Assembly (NCBI GenBank): GCA_016201105.1
Contig: JACQDN010000030.1
Coordinates: 169,014 to 233,013, forward strand
Origin: Pseudomonadota bacterium
Lineage (GTDB): Bacteria > Pseudomonadota > Alphaproteobacteria > Micropepsales > Micropepsaceae
DNA: 64,000 nucleotides
Direction: 5' to 3'
Below, piece after piece: positions 2,239-64,000 of this stretch (positions within the stretch are counted from its first letter, which is position 1; each line of letters opens with the position of its first letter). Under the pieces are notes generated by a model, which was not told the DNA's origin, ran no database searches, and saw only the letters and a program-made list of their open reading frames with translations. The position numbers and the translations under genes are program-made.

Positions 2239-3051
2239 TCAGCGGCGCACAAAGCGCAAGAAAGCCGGCGTGCCGTGCAACTGCTTGGCTTCGTAGCGGG
2301 TTTGCGGCCAATCAGGAGTGCGCGAACGCCAATCGGCGGCGCACGTTGCCGTCCACGCAAAGCGCGGATGCGCGAGGAGGCGCTCTAGCGTCCACTCCAG
2401 ATAGGGCGCGTCATCGCTTGCGAAACGAAGCTCCGCGCCCTTGCGCATCACGCGAGCGAGTTGATCGAGCGTCTCGGTTTGGATGAAGCGGCGCTTGTGG
2501 TGCCGCGTCTTGGGCCACGGATCGGGGAAGAGGATAAAGACGCGGCCGAGGCTCGCGTCGGGCAACGCTGCGATGACGTCGCGCGCATCGCCCATGTGGA
2601 TGCGGATGTTGCGCGACACCTCGACGAATTTCGAGAGAAGCTTTGCAACGCCGTTCACGAACGGCTCGGCGCCGATGATGCCGATGTGCGGATGGTTTTC
2701 CGCCTGCCAATGCAGATGCTCGCCGGCGCCGAAGCCGATTTCGAGCCAGACGTCTTTGATTTCGTCATCACCTCTCCCTTGTGGAGAGGTCGAAAAATCG
2801 GAGCGCAGCAAAGATTTTTTGGGTGAGGGGAAGTGGTGAGGCTTCCCCTCACCCGAAATTTGCGTGCCGCAAATTTCGACCTCTCCACGAGGGAGAGGTA
2901 AGAAATATGAGCGTGGATCGGCGCCCGGCTTTAGATGCAGCGTCAGCTGCGGAAGCAGTGTCTCCAGCAAATGCTGCTGATGCGCGGAGAGCTTCGGCCC
3001 TTTGCGCCGTCCATACAAAAGTCGGCGCTGGCGTTCGGGGCGCTCGCTCAA
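2239..3051 (-). CDS. trmB: tRNA (guanine(46)-N(7))-methyltransferase TrmB carrying an in-frame repeat-encoded insertion
   Basis: VWLEIGFGAGEHLHWQAENHP, GAEPFVNGVAKLL, FPDPWPKTRHHKRRFIQ motifs. Probable TTG start at 3051, one base after the metK stop; the track ORF extends to 3159 into metK. Segment encoded by about 2770-2899 is repeat A. Confidence 0.9.
   Translation of the reverse strand: MSERPERQRRLLYGRRKGPKLSAHQQHLLETLLPQLTLHLKPGADPRSYFLPLPRGEVEICGTQISGEGKPHHFPSPKKSLLRSDFSTSPQGRGDDEIKDVWLEIGFGAGEHLHWQAENHPHIGIIGAEPFVNGVAKLLSKFVEVSRNIRIHMGDARDVIAALPDASLGRVFILFPDPWPKTRHHKRRFIQTETLDQLARVMRKGAELRFASDDAPYLEWTLERLLAHPRFAWTATCAADWRSRTPDWPQTRYEAKQLHGTPAFLRFVRR
2770..2899. repeat. Repeat A copy (palindromic element) inside trmB
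   Basis: acctctcccttgtggagaggtcgaaaa...cccctcacccgaaatttgcgtgccgcaaatttcgacctctccacgagggagaggt; same architecture as the other repeat A copies. Confidence 0.85.
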
Positions 3052-3052
3052 T

Positions 3053-4240
<1,188 letters not shown>

Positions 4241-4768: not shown

Positions 4769-4776
4769 GTTTGAAC

Positions 4777-4911
4777 GACCCTCCCTCGGGAGGGTCGAAA
4801 TTCGCGAAGCGAATTTCGGGGAGGACGCGCGACACCTGCGCCAGTGCCTTCCTGATCCTCCCCGAAAATTCTCGCTGCGCTCGAATTGTCGACCCTCCCA
4901 AGGGAGGGTGG
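4777..4911. repeat. Repeat A copy
   Basis: gaccctccctcgggagggtcgaaattcgcgaagcgaatttcggggagga...tcctccccgaaaattctcgctgcgctcgaattgtcgaccctcccaagggagggtgg. Confidence 0.9.
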
Positions 4912-4913
4912 AT

Positions 4914-7666: not shown

Positions 7667-7677
7667 GCGCGCTTGTC

Positions 7678-7857
7678 GACCCTCCCCTTGAGGGAGGGTC
7701 GAAATCTTTGCGAACGAAGTGAGCAGAGATTTCGGGGAGGGGTCATGCCGTGTCGTCTGAAATACATCCTCGATATTTGTATTCTGGCTTTTGCGGGCTC
7801 GGCATGACCCCTCCCCGAATTTGCTGCGCAAATTCGACCCTCCCTCAAGGGGAGGGT
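7678..7857. repeat. Repeat A copy (long form)
   Basis: gaccctccccttgagggagggtcgaaatctttgcg...ggggaggggtcatgccg...cggcatgacccctccccgaatttgctgcgcaaattcgaccctccctcaaggggagggt. Confidence 0.92.
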
Positions 7858-7922
7858 TGATTGCAGAGACTTTCGCCCTCGGCCTCGTCTTGGTATCAAG
7901 GTGCCCGCACCCGGAGCCAGCC

Positions 7923-8642: not shown

Positions 8643-9761
8643 ATGGTCGATATCACCAAAGACGATGCCTACGACGCCGCCGACCCCAAGGATTTTCCGG
8701 CGATGCTGGAGGTCGAGCGTTACGGCCACCGTTCCACGGCGTTCGACAAGATCATCAGCGCGACGCACGACCATTTCTGGGATCCGCTGGACAAGAAGTA
8801 CATCGACTTCAGCGCGCCCTTCGATCAGACGAAGGACAGCGTGCTCCCCTATGAAGAGTTCTTCCCCATCTTCCGCACCCGCATCGGCGATGCGATGACG
8901 CACGAGCAGAAGCTGAAGTTCGCCAGCCAATCGACGCGCTGGCAGCTCTCCGCGATTTTGCACGGCGAACAGGGCGCGCTGGCGCTATCGGCTTCGCTCT
9001 GCCACATCTTGAAGGACCCCGGCGCGCAGGAATACGCCGCGAACCAGACCCGCGAAGAAGCCCGTCACGTCACCGCCTTTGCCAGCTACATCAAAGCGCG
9101 CTGGGGTTCGCCGCTTCCTTGCGGCGACACGCTGCAAAGTCTTCTCACCGAAATGGTGCTGGCGCCGGAGGTCTACAAAAAGATCGTCGGCATGCAGATG
9201 CTGGTCGAGGGTCTCGCCATGGGCGCCTTCGCCACGCTCTACCAGAAATCAAAGGATCCGCTGCTGGTGAAACTCTGCCAGCTGGTGATGACCGACGAGG
9301 CCTTCCATCACAAGTTCGGAAAGATTTGGGCCGACCGCACCGTTCCCAAGCTGACGCAAGAAGAACACGTCATCGTGGAAGACTGGGCGGCGCGGTGCTT
9401 TCAGACGCTGCTCTTCAACCTGGTCAATCCGGAACAGATGAAGGTGGTTTACGCCTCCATCGGCATCGACTGGCAGGACGCGATGGCCGCCATCCAGGAA
9501 GCCTTCACCGACGAAGACCGCCGCAAGGCGATGAAGCAATCGGCCAACATCTTCCGCGTGCTCATCAAGACGCTGCTCAATGCCGGCATCATCACCGAGC
9601 GCACCAAGTCGTTCTACGGCATGTATGTCGACATGAACGAATTGGCAGGCGAAGGCGAGCGCATGGTGGGCGACGACATCGCCGAAGAGGGCATCCGCTA
9701 TCTGCAGTCGATCAATTTCGCCGACACCTCCAAGGGCCAGGCGCTACTCGCCGCGGAATAA
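8643..9761 (+). CDS. Ferritin-like diiron-carboxylate protein, paralog 1
   Basis: E...EEARH...VEGLAMG...DEAFHHKFG: two ExxH pairs and additional Glu residues typical of diiron four-helix bundles; strongly similar to ORFs 27772-28890 and 29035-30150. Confidence 0.8.
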   Translation: MVDITKDDAYDAADPKDFPAMLEVERYGHRSTAFDKIISATHDHFWDPLDKKYIDFSAPFDQTKDSVLPYEEFFPIFRTRIGDAMTHEQKLKFASQSTRWQLSAILHGEQGALALSASLCHILKDPGAQEYAANQTREEARHVTAFASYIKARWGSPLPCGDTLQSLLTEMVLAPEVYKKIVGMQMLVEGLAMGAFATLYQKSKDPLLVKLCQLVMTDEAFHHKFGKIWADRTVPKLTQEEHVIVEDWAARCFQTLLFNLVNPEQMKVVYASIGIDWQDAMAAIQEAFTDEDRRKAMKQSANIFRVLIKTLLNAGIITERTKSFYGMYVDMNELAGEGERMVGDDIAEEGIRYLQSINFADTSKGQALLAAE

Positions 9762-23506: not shown

Positions 23507-23542
23507 GGATGACCCCGTGAATAGCGATTTCGCATATCACTC

Positions 23543-23724
23543 TACCCTCCCCTTGAGGGAGGGTCGAATTGGATGCGCGCGACAGCGCGGAGACAAATTC
23601 GGGGAGGGGTCAGGCCGAGGCCTTCAAACGCACGGGACATTCAGCGTATTGATTTACACAGCACGGCATGACCCCTCCCCGAAATTTGCTTGGCAAATTT
23701 CGACCCTCCCTCAAGGGGAGGGTG
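23543..23724. repeat. Repeat A copy (long form)
   Basis: taccctccccttgagggagggtcgaatt...ggggaggggtca...tgacccctccccgaaatttgcttggcaaatttcgaccctccctcaaggggagggt. Confidence 0.92.
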
Positions 23725-26169: not shown

Positions 26170-27768
26170 ATGAAAAACGCGTTGGGTCCCATCGCCTGCG
26201 CCGGGTTGAGCGGGGCGGCTTTCTTTCTCTCCACCGGATTTGGGGAGTTGTGGTGGCTTGCCTGGTTCGCACCGGTCCCGGTGCTGGTGCTCGCGTTCGG
26301 CAAAACCAATCCGATGGTGGTGATCGCAGCGGCGATCGGCGCAATGGCGCTCGGCGCCTCGAGCGCGCTGCTTCCTTACCTCGGACTGGTGCCGCTTCAG
26401 ACGATGGGCGCGGCGCTGGCGCTGGAAGGCATCGCCTTCGCGGTCTGTGCGATGGCGGCGCGATTCACCTCGCGCGTTCTTTTTCCCCTGGCGGGACCGT
26501 TGTGTTTCGCCGCGCTTTGGACGGCGTGGGACTTTCTCGCCTCGCACGGACCGGACGGCGCGATCTTCTCGCCGGCTTACAGCCAGGCCGGTTTTCCGAT
26601 TCTGATCCAGTCCGCTTCGCTGGTGGGCATGTGGGGCGTCACATTTCTTGTCGGGCTTCTCGCGGGACTGACGGCGCTTTCTTTCGCAACCCGCAATGCA
26701 ACGCCGGTGCTGCTGGCGGCGGGGCTCTTCGCGCTCAATCTCACGGTCGGCGCGATCCGCATGGAATTGGCCGACAGCGAAAAGACGCGCGTCGTGATGA
26801 TCGACAGCGATATTCTCACGGAAGCCTCGGCCATCGACCGCGAAGATCTGGCGATGGGCGCGATTACGGCTTACGCGGGCAAGAGCCGGCTGCTGGCGCA
26901 AAGCGCAGCGCTGATCGTGCTGCCGGAAAAAATCGCCATCGTGCGGCCGCAGTGGAAAGACGCGGTGCAAAGCGAGTTCCAGCACGTCGCCGATGCCACG
27001 GGGGCGGCCATTGTCGGCGGCTTCAATGTGCAAGGGCCGGCAGGCCTTGAAAGCCAGACCTGGGTGTTTCAATCCAATTCGCCGATGCTCACTTACAACG
27101 AGCGCGTTCCCGGTCCCGCCTTTGGCGCCCAAGCCGATCTGGCTTATTCGGGCGCGACGGACGGCGACGCGCTGATCGAAGCCTCCAGTCACATGAACTA
27201 TCAGGCGCTACTGCGCGAGGATGCGCTGCGCACGCACGCGCCGCTCGTCGCCGTGCCGGCCTGGGACTTCGGCATCGATACGAATCTGCAATCGCGCATC
27301 GCGATTCTGCGCAGTGTCGAAAACGGTTTCGCGTTGGCGCGCAACGCGCGGCACGGCGCGATGCTGCTCAGCGATCCATACGGCCGCGTTGCAGCGATGA
27401 AAAAGACCGGCGGTGACGGCTTTTCCACCCTCGTCGCCAATGTGGCGACCGGCGCGGGTTCCGGCTACACGCTCTATGACGTAATCGGCGATGCGTTTGC
27501 CTGGGTCTGCGCCTGCTTTGCGGGCGCGATGCTATTCGCCGCTTTCGTCCGCATGGTCATGGGCAAGAGCGGATTCAGACTGCGCGATCTGCGCATGAGA
27601 CCGTTCAGCGGAATTTTGCAGCCGGTGTGGAGTGCGAGTTTCACCCTCCCTCGGGAGGGTCGAAAAATTCGTAGCGCAGCGGAGAATTTTTCGGGGAGGA
27701 TCAGGACGCGCTATCTTCCGCATCCTCCCCGAAGCGCTTCGCGCTTCGACCCTCCCGAGGGAGGGTAG
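26170..27768 (+). CDS. Apolipoprotein N-acyltransferase (Lnt)-like membrane/nitrilase-fold protein, apparently lacking catalytic residues; repeat-encoded C-terminus
   Basis: N-terminal TM segments, TAWDFLASHGPDGAIFSPAYSQAGFPILIQSASLVGMWGVTFLVG Lnt-like; nitrilase-like domain with LIVLPEK; final residues FTLPREGRKIRSAAENFSGRIRTRYLPHPPRSASRFDPPEGG lie in repeat A. Confidence 0.7.
   Translation: MKNALGPIACAGLSGAAFFLSTGFGELWWLAWFAPVPVLVLAFGKTNPMVVIAAAIGAMALGASSALLPYLGLVPLQTMGAALALEGIAFAVCAMAARFTSRVLFPLAGPLCFAALWTAWDFLASHGPDGAIFSPAYSQAGFPILIQSASLVGMWGVTFLVGLLAGLTALSFATRNATPVLLAAGLFALNLTVGAIRMELADSEKTRVVMIDSDILTEASAIDREDLAMGAITAYAGKSRLLAQSAALIVLPEKIAIVRPQWKDAVQSEFQHVADATGAAIVGGFNVQGPAGLESQTWVFQSNSPMLTYNERVPGPAFGAQADLAYSGATDGDALIEASSHMNYQALLREDALRTHAPLVAVPAWDFGIDTNLQSRIAILRSVENGFALARNARHGAMLLSDPYGRVAAMKKTGGDGFSTLVANVATGAGSGYTLYDVIGDAFAWVCACFAGAMLFAAFVRMVMGKSGFRLRDLRMRPFSGILQPVWSASFTLPREGRKIRSAAENFSGRIRTRYLPHPPRSASRFDPPEGG
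27643..27767. repeat. Repeat A copy
   Basis: accctccctcgggagggtcgaaaaattcg...cggggaggatcaggacg...catcctccccgaagcgcttcgcgcttcgaccctcccgagggagggt. Confidence 0.9.
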
Positions 27769-27771
27769 TTC

Positions 27772-28890
27772 TTATTCCGCCGCCAGCGCGCTTGGGGTCA
27801 GCAGCGACTTTCCGCCGTTGAGCGTCATCAGATATTTGATGCCTTCCTCGGCGATGTCGTCGCCGATCATGCGGTCGCTTTCGCTATGCAGTTCGGCCAT
27901 GTCGACATACGCCGCGTAGGTGGCGCGGGTGCGATCGGTGATGATGCCGGCCTTGAGCAGCGTCTTGATGAGCACGCGGAAGATGGAGGTGGAATCCTTC
28001 ATGCGCTCGCGCAGTTTCGCGTCGGTGAAGGCTTCCATCATGGCGCCTTGCGCCCACTGCCAGTCGAGGCCGAATTCGGCATAGAGCCATTTCTTCTGTT
28101 CGGGCGAGCCGATGTTGCGCAAGAGGCCCATGAAGACTTGCGCGGCCCAATCCTCGATCTTGTTGCGCTCGTCTTCGGAGAGTTTGGGGATGGTGCGGTC
28201 GGCCCAGATCTTTCCGAACTTGTGATGAAAGGCTTCATCCGTCATCACCAGCTGGCAGAGCCGCTTGAGCAGCGGATCTTCGGCGTAGGTGTAGAACGTG
28301 GCGAAGGCGCCCATGGCGAGGCCTTCGACCAGCATCTGCATGCCCACGAGCTTCTTCCACACGAAAGGCGACAGCACCATTTCGGTGAGCAGATTGCCCA
28401 GCGCGGGTCCGACCGGCACCGGCTTGCCCCAGCGCGCTTTGATGTAAGCCGCGAACGCGGTGACGTGGCGGGCTTCTTCGCGGGTCTGGTTGGCGGCGTA
28501 TTCCTGCGCGCCGGGGTCCTTGAGGATGTGGCAGAGCGAAGCCGACAGCGCCAGCGCGCCCTGCTCGCCATGCAGGATCGACGACATCGAAAACAGCACG
28601 CCGGTATTCATGAATTTGATTTTTTGCTTTTCGGTGAGCTTGTCGCCGATAGCCGTCTGCAATTCGAGACTCATCTTCGGCGGGATGAGATAGGCGTTCT
28701 CCATATCCCACGGCGCGTCGAAGTCGATGTACTTCTTGTCGAGCGGATCCCAGAAATGATCGTGGGTGGCGGAGATGATCTTGTCGAAGGCGGTGGAGCG
28801 CCTGCCATAGCGCTCCACTTCCAGCATGGCGGGAAAATCGTGCGGATCGGCGGCATCGTAGGCCGGATCCTTGGTGATGTTGGTGTCCAT
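27772..28890 (-). CDS. Ferritin-like diiron-carboxylate protein, paralog 2
   Basis: ITKDPAYDAADPHDFPAMLEVERYGRRSTAFDKIISATHDHFWDPLDKKYIDF...EEARH...DEAFHHKFG. Confidence 0.8.
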   Translation of the reverse strand: MDTNITKDPAYDAADPHDFPAMLEVERYGRRSTAFDKIISATHDHFWDPLDKKYIDFDAPWDMENAYLIPPKMSLELQTAIGDKLTEKQKIKFMNTGVLFSMSSILHGEQGALALSASLCHILKDPGAQEYAANQTREEARHVTAFAAYIKARWGKPVPVGPALGNLLTEMVLSPFVWKKLVGMQMLVEGLAMGAFATFYTYAEDPLLKRLCQLVMTDEAFHHKFGKIWADRTIPKLSEDERNKIEDWAAQVFMGLLRNIGSPEQKKWLYAEFGLDWQWAQGAMMEAFTDAKLRERMKDSTSIFRVLIKTLLKAGIITDRTRATYAAYVDMAELHSESDRMIGDDIAEEGIKYLMTLNGGKSLLTPSALAAE

Positions 28891-29034: not shown

Positions 29035-30150
29035 TTACTCCGCGGCCAGCAGCGACGGCGCCGTCATCTTTCCGCCGTTGAGCTTGATGAGATATTTGAT
29101 GCCTTCTTCGGCGATGTCGTCGCCGACCATGCGATCGCCTTCGGCATAGAGTTCCTGCATGTCGATGTAAGCCGCATATACACCTTTGGTGCGTTCGGTG
29201 ATGATGCCGGCTTTCAGCAGCGTCTTGATGAGGACGCGAAAGATGTTGGTGGCCTCCTGCATCTCCACGCGAATCTGGGCGTCGGTGAAGGCTTCCATGA
29301 ACGCTGACTGGCACCACGCGGGGTCGAGACCGACTTCGCGGTAGATCCATTCCTTCTGGTCGGGGCTGCCCAGATTGAACAGCAGGATTTGGAACACCTG
29401 CGCGGCCCAGTCTTCGATCAACTCGTGTTCGCTCTTGGAGAGATTGGGGATCGTGCGATCGGCCCAGATCTTTCCGAACTTGTGATGGAAGGCTTCGTCT
29501 GTCATGACGAGCTGGCAGGTCTGGCGCAGCAGTGGATCGCGCGCTTCCTTGTAGAGCGTGGCGAACGCGCCCATCGCGAGGCCTTCGATCAGCATCTGCA
29601 TGCCGACAAGTTTCTTCCACACCAGCGGCGAGCCGACGAGCTCGTTGAGCAAACTGCCGAGCGCGGGCCCGACTTGAACCGGCTTACCCCAGCGCGCCTG
29701 GATGTATTTCGTGAAGGCGGTGACGTGACGGGCTTCTTCGCGCGTCTGGTTCGCCGCGTATTCCTGCGCGCCCGGATCGCGCAGGATGTGACAGAGTGAG
29801 GCCGAGAGTGACAGCGCGCCCTGCTCGCCGTGCAGGATCGAGGACATCGTCCACAGCGTGTCGAGATTGGCGAGCTTGATCTTGTTACGCTCGTCGAGTT
29901 TTTCCGCGATTGCGGTTTTCAGATCGCCGTTCAATTCAGGATTGACGAGATACTCCTTCTCCATGTCGAAGGGTGCGGAGAAGTCGATGTATTTCCTGTC
30001 CAGCGGATCCCAGAAATGGTCATGGGTAGCGGAGATGATCTTGTCGAAGGCGGTGGAGCGGTCGCCGTAGCGGTTGACTTCCAGCATGGCGGGAAAATCG
30101 TTCGGGTCGACGGCGTTGTAGGCAGGATCCTTGGTGATGTTGCTGTCCAC
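29035..30150 (-). CDS. Ferritin-like diiron-carboxylate protein, paralog 3
   Basis: ITKDPAYNAVDPNDFPAMLEVNRYGDRSTAFDKIISATHDHFWDPLDRKYIDF...EEARH...IEGLAMG...DEAFHHKFG. Confidence 0.8.
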   Translation of the reverse strand: MDSNITKDPAYNAVDPNDFPAMLEVNRYGDRSTAFDKIISATHDHFWDPLDRKYIDFSAPFDMEKEYLVNPELNGDLKTAIAEKLDERNKIKLANLDTLWTMSSILHGEQGALSLSASLCHILRDPGAQEYAANQTREEARHVTAFTKYIQARWGKPVQVGPALGSLLNELVGSPLVWKKLVGMQMLIEGLAMGAFATLYKEARDPLLRQTCQLVMTDEAFHHKFGKIWADRTIPNLSKSEHELIEDWAAQVFQILLFNLGSPDQKEWIYREVGLDPAWCQSAFMEAFTDAQIRVEMQEATNIFRVLIKTLLKAGIITERTKGVYAAYIDMQELYAEGDRMVGDDIAEEGIKYLIKLNGGKMTAPSLLAAE

Positions 30151-60096: not shown

Positions 60097-60135
60097 GCGC
60101 CTGCTCTCCGCCAAGTATGGATTAGATTTTTCCAC

Positions 60136-60260
60136 ACCACAACCGTCATGGCCGCCCTCGTGGCGGCCATCCATGATCACTGTGCCAACCATTTTCACGC
60201 GAAATTCGACATCGCGATCTTGGGTGGCCGGGACAAGCCCGGCCATGACGGTGTTGTTGT
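60136..60260. repeat. Repeat C copy
   Basis: cacaaccgtcatggccgccctcgtggcggccatcc ... gggtggccgggacaagcccggccatgacggtgttgttgtg. Confidence 0.75.
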
Positions 60261-60284
60261 GATGTAATCCAGCGCAAAGCAGTT

Positions 60285-60619: not shown

Positions 60620-60703
60620 CGTCATCGCCCGGCTTGTCCGGGCGACCCATCTTGTGGTTTTGAAAAAAGAAAGATGGGTCACCCGGACAAGCCGGGTGAT
60701 GAC
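60620..60703. repeat. Repeat C-type hairpin between ACP and radical SAM genes
   Basis: CGTCATCGCCCGGCTTGTCCGGGCGACCCATCTT ... AAGATGGGTCACCCGGACAAGCCGGGTGATGACG. Confidence 0.85.
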
Positions 60704-60784
60704 GGATATTGGAGCGTATGGGTCCCGGCACGCGCATCGCTGCGTAATGCTTGGCCGGGATGACGGATGGAGAGATGGACGGCC

Positions 60785-63697: not shown

Positions 63698-63803
63698 GAT
63701 CTGGGTTCTGTCTCTTCGAATGACGGCGGCTCAGCTGAGCGATACTATCACAGGGCACCTCGGCTTGATTTCCTCATCGGGTTAGCCTCCGTTCGAACCA
63801 TTC

Positions 63804-64000
63804 AACCCTCCCCTTGAGGGAGGGTCGAAATCATCGCGAACGCAGTGAGCGGGGATTTCGGGGAGGGGTCATGCCGCGGCAGTTCAGCGATCGCGGCATT
63901 GTCAAAACTGGCTCGGCGTTACCGGTCTTCATAGAGCGTCAATTTACGCAACACGGCATGACCCCTCCCCGAAGCGCTTTGCGCTTCGACCCTCCCTCCC
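63804..64000. repeat. Repeat A copy (long form), reaches the window end
   Basis: accctccccttgagggagggtcgaaatcatcgcgaacgcagtgagcggggatttcggggaggggtcatgccg...cggcatgacccctccccgaagcgctttgcgcttcgaccctccctccc. Confidence 0.9.

Follow-up and report, generated by a model that had tools for sequence, protein, structure and literature searches.

A dispersed palindrome in frame within trmB, and the apparently repeated filling of its loop across a Rhizomicrobium-like genus

The trmB gene of a Rhizomicrobium-like soil alphaproteobacterium, located within a 64,000-nucleotide stretch of genomic DNA (the window), carries a presumably mobile palindrome in frame, and the permissive TrmB loop that holds it has probably been filled many times across the genus—a reading to which we give a probability of about 0.72. 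A REP/MITE-like repeat of ~134 bp has inserted between codons 50 and 51 of trmB and, as its net addition is a multiple of three with a stop-free frame, the gene stays open. The repeat would then be translated into a 44-residue disordered surface loop and TrmB would retain its activity despite the insert, both of which we infer. This loop (site 1) and a second one further downstream (site 2) would have been filled repeatedly in the course of the genus's history.

The start of trmB is a TTG, as judged from relatives and from the stop of the adjacent metK. Its product matches Pfam Methyltransf_4 with an E value of 2.4e-39 and scores 112.1 bits against NCBIfam TIGR00091, ~0.5 bit below the curated cut-off of 112.65. 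The insert amounts to 44 codons (residues 51–94) between codons 50 and 51, and with these residues taken out, the remaining sequence can be aligned from end to end with that of relatives, the highest identities being 74–75%. The catalytic-core residues are invariant. A second full trmB had been named as something that would undermine the sequence-only reading of this stretch; a genome search returned the window gene as the sole TrmB. The dN/dS values are 0.12–0.13 for pairs of filled and empty genes (0.11–0.31 across the pairs compared), which shows trmB to be under purifying selection. The conserved core, the single copy, and this selection place the product in the TrmB family. In an AlphaFold2 model run with 38 relatives, the core reaches a pLDDT above 90 and matches the fold of E. 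coli TrmB, and the insert has values of ~46–61 without secondary structure. The insert is predicted to form a disordered surface loop that follows the N-terminal extension and precedes the first strand of the Rossmann core, where SAM is bound. The earlier suggestion that an insertion just before that strand could be tolerated is supported. TrmB of E. coli and B. subtilis share the fold and catalytic core but lack a palindromic insert at this point.

Table 1. Features of the trmB locus in the window, and genomes carrying inserts at the two TrmB loops
Feature	Position in window	Strand	Remarks
trmB, tRNA (guanine46-N7)-methyltransferase	2239..3051	-	270 aa with insert; Pfam and NCBIfam
Site 2 loop KFVEVSR	2611..2631	-	before NIRIH; empty in window, hairpin-filled in six congeners
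Original six-codon linker DDEIKD	2752..2769	-	kept after the insert, before VWLE; equal in length to the entire linker of most relatives with an empty site
Palindromic repeat copy	2768..2901	.	codons 51-94 of trmB
metK	3053..4240	-	directly upstream of trmB; repeat insert in no relative examined
Site 1 carriers			G000, G002, G022, G028, G034, G035, G036, G065, G071, G081, G082, G083
Site 2 carriers			insert before NIRIH; G004, G030, G065, G073, G081, G082

That a repeat copy lies in frame within trmB had been claimed from the sequence, and the reading frame is indeed open through the repeat with exactly the peptide then quoted. The span first given, 2770–2899, has the right location but not the full extent: the element is an imperfect palindrome of 134 bp (TCACCTC...GAGGTAA; Table 1). 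Its 26-nt end arms are 96% complementary in an inverted-repeat analysis of the window, and its RNA fold reaches -88.4 kcal/mol, where shuffled sequences average -39.4 (z -13). It is built of two convergent hairpin half-units, each of the form TCACCTCYCCCTYGTGGRGAGGTCGAAA-stem-TTTCGGGTGRGGG, and forms a double hairpin of ~134 bp with the ends TCACCTC/GAGGTGA. The repeat is also dispersed, as had been supposed, with 78 match rows on both strands at ~50 places in the window genome (G000; 3.85 Mb, 84 contigs), where the best two full-length copies are 90–91% identical to the trmB repeat over its whole length. A known structured RNA is ruled out as its identity by an Rfam search of the window, which returned two tRNAs only. 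The flanks of the copies hold no long target motif, just a weak TAA before TCACC, the trmB insert junctions compared have no consistent target-site duplication, and no parent transposon for the repeat was identified. As in a MITE, the element is short and non-coding with terminal inverted repeats (the 26-nt, 96% complementary ends), and it is best read as a short non-autonomous REP/MITE-like mobile palindrome. Two Y1 transposase genes are present in the window genome, and a RAYT (Y1) mobiliser is ruled against as no repeat copy lies beside either of them; in the carrier G022 no Y1 gene was found. On the short contig L080 (1883–3888) of the window genome, a Y1 gene adjoins an ORF that resembles, by eye, a group II intron reverse transcriptase.

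The window contains further repeats. Paired palindromes of the ACCCTCCC...GGGAGGGT type, at 4774–4912, 7676–7860, 23541–23723, 27639–27769, and 63802–63973, are a sister family of the trmB repeat. Inverted repeats starting CGTCAT (60133–60261 and 60620–60704) differ from the trmB repeat and look, by eye, like CGTC-tagged REP dimers. Three homologous stretches of ~1 kb (27808–28878, 29068–30138, and 8652–9715; 73–85% alike), two in tandem and one inverted, probably represent a paralogous gene family.

Across the genus, 69 genomes were searched and their trmB neighbourhoods compared, with trmB readable in ~65. Repeat-derived sequence occupies site 1 in 12 of these, the window genome included, as half-copies in G002 and G022 and as a short remnant only in G082. 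Site 2 holds hairpin inserts in six (G003 is left out of this count, its site 2 having no clear hairpin and a z of -0.9). Altogether, 15 species are affected: that of the window and 14 sister species. The earlier reading had proposed alignment with relatives lacking the insert, where a non-repeat linker of similar length would have spoken against it; ~50 relatives instead have a short linker of five to six codons at site 1. A similar-length non-repeat linker is therefore ruled out for most, the exception being G114, of another genus, with a longer linker that does not look repeat-like. Rhizomicrobium belongs to the Micropepsaceae, and G093, from another genus of the family, has a hairpin at site 2. 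Among the empty relatives, G079, G067, and G023 have shortened or odd linkers of five codons, and in G075 (L137:4966–5607, minus strand) the YF linker is wholly absent, which is perhaps the scar of an imprecise loss. In all carriers the insert adds an exact number of codons and leaves the trmB frame free of stops. Two of the three forward frames of full-length inserts contain no stops or almost none, so that an open frame by itself comes with the element; the evidence for coding is that the frame is preserved in every carrier.

A species tree built from 2696 columns of six neighbouring genes places the carriers in scattered positions, with 10–11 state changes, and constraining them to a single clade is rejected (p 1e-6). 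The TrmB tree likewise does not gather the carriers, and horizontal spread of one filled trmB allele is thereby ruled out. Two close relatives, G029 and G079, lack an insert at the site; the empty site of G029 is clean and stands beside the filled one of G028, with flanks 86–89% identical. Inserts in G000 and G034 are closest to copies in their own genomes (90–91% and 90%, respectively), above any other trmB insert, and those of G034 and its close relative G071 are in opposite orientation. In G036, a different element sits at a different junction, five codons further on, with 84–85% copies in G092 and G015. Such a scattered distribution points to repeated insertion into a permissive loop, or to replacement by other genomic copies. 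Five full-length inserts, however, have both junctions in common to the base and the same frame, and for the G083 insert, copies from its own genome are no better a match than copies from G071. Inheritance, loss, and replacement may thus account for part of the pattern: repeated filling of the loop is more likely than a single event, with inheritance possible inside some clades.

The same loop is occupied in other alphaproteobacteria. In a Hyphomicrobium MAG (L255, near 1333), site 1 holds a GC-rich palindrome that is dispersed in its own genome as one 91% copy and partial copies (20 match rows), and a MAG labelled 'Rickettsiales bacterium' (L238, near 925) has another palindrome there, most of whose 27 match rows are partial. 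The Hyphomicrobium repeat and that of the window are clearly unrelated, and the L238 repeat has only C-rich arms in common with the latter; hence, the site 1 loop has been used independently. Recurrence, the second loop, and this convergence in other orders escaped the earlier reading because they are invisible from a single window.

Location inside a gene is the exception for this repeat. A search for other copies inside ORFs had been proposed; among the copies read in the window genome, the trmB copy alone splits a recognised gene, and none of three other spanning ORFs has a Pfam domain on both sides of the repeat. MetK, HslU, HslV, InfB, RimP, and NusA of the same loci have no repeat-derived insert; in our reading, repeat-flagged matches in nusA are the nusA–rimP gap joined by one reading frame, and InfB length changes are low-complexity linkers rather than repeats. 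A Pfam check of ten spanning ORFs, from 44 elements sampled in G083 and G028, gave a second genuine intragenic case: dnaX of G028 (L310:10–2070, plus strand), in which a palindromic repeat lies in frame after domain III and before the C-terminal tau domain; in the nine others no domain is split as far as Pfam shows.

Repeated filling of the loop does not easily explain five base-exact junctions in the absence of a long target motif, and the chief competing account is one early ancestral insertion with many later deletions, together with gene conversion between the insert and other genomic copies, which would update the sequence and could flip the orientation. The identical junctions and frame agree with this, as do the half-copies and the shortened or odd linkers of the four empty relatives named above. 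It nevertheless calls for near-exact losses in roughly the number of the gains that the alternative requires, most of these losses restoring a linker of five to six codons, and it leaves G036, site 2, and the unrelated repeats of the two other alphaproteobacteria unexplained; we consider it unlikely, though the foremost of the rivals. Somewhat less probable still is a hairpin or loop with a selected role—for example in mRNA stability, pausing, or TrmB regulation—that would keep the insert and draw replacements. Such a role could account for trmB being hit in 15 congeners and by unrelated palindromes elsewhere, while neighbouring genes are spared. The insert is, however, absent from most species and not conserved in sequence, exists also as half-copies and remnants, and is modelled as disordered; the dnaX case, found among the genes examined and located in a linker, fits plain tolerance. 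Targeted insertion was also considered, as five full-length carriers have their junctions at the same base: that site 1 is a preferred, rather than simply tolerated, landing site for unrelated palindromes across alphaproteobacterial orders, through targeting or through a hairpin or loop that tunes TrmB, is a tentative and rather doubtful proposal.

Two further accounts are very improbable. The insert might be missing from the protein through ribosome skipping, removal from the mRNA, or a start downstream, to which the very stable hairpin lends itself; skipping or removal would need neither whole codons nor an open frame, yet both occur in every carrier, and the first 50 residues of the protein are conserved among carriers. 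A decaying pseudogene has nothing but the insertion itself in its favour, and is ruled out by invariant core residues, the low dN/dS, and the single TrmB of the genome. The preferred reading remains that of a mobile palindrome in a permissive loop with a history of repeated filling.

Rickettsia palindromic elements (RPEs) are palindromes of ~150 bp translated in frame inside unrelated protein genes (PMC10969869), and the analogy drawn with them from the sequence holds, RPEs being compared here by description. Both are palindromes in frame in a protein gene, translation of the trmB repeat being presumed; the latter differs in its Rhizomicrobium-like host, presumably in its sequence, and in recurring at one site across species. 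Close to half of RPEs are located in ORFs; of the copies read in the window genome, approximately one is, with two cases (trmB and dnaX) in the G028 copies examined. By analogy, the trmB repeat appears to work like an RPE without being one. Its presence outside Rickettsia had been thought unusual, a view that is not supported: in-ORF REPs were catalogued in 2013, among other hosts in free-living alphaproteobacteria such as Sphingopyxis alaskensis and Erythrobacter litoralis, with truB, which serves tRNA modification, as one of the genes affected (PMC3733652). These GTAG- or CGTC-tagged REP/BIME form hairpin dimers in opposite orientation, mostly intergenic and occasionally in frame in ORFs (PMC3733652). 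Compared with their 20–40-bp hairpins, the trmB repeat is longer (~134 bp) and its ends lack GTAG or CGTC; RAYT-mobilised REPs share its hairpin character, but neither Y1 gene of the window genome adjoins the trmB repeat. The kind is already established beyond Rickettsia, with in-frame intragenic REPs known from alphaproteobacteria and from a gene for tRNA modification. In the open-licence papers searched, neither a bacterial-repeat paper with this sequence nor many-fold recurrence at one loop was found; as far as these papers show, the novelty lies in this genus's repeat family and chiefly in the many-fold recurrence in two loops of one gene.

The two interpretations of in-frame palindromes, selfish DNA concealed within proteins or a source of new protein segments, have mostly been built on isolated cases. 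In trmB, about ten or more events can be compared, alongside sister species with empty sites, at two acceptor loops and with repeat families that are unrelated, so that the entry of such repeats, their translation and harmlessness, and their repeated uptake by some genes become testable. The gene is thus probably a repeated natural landing site for repeats that would code for protein.
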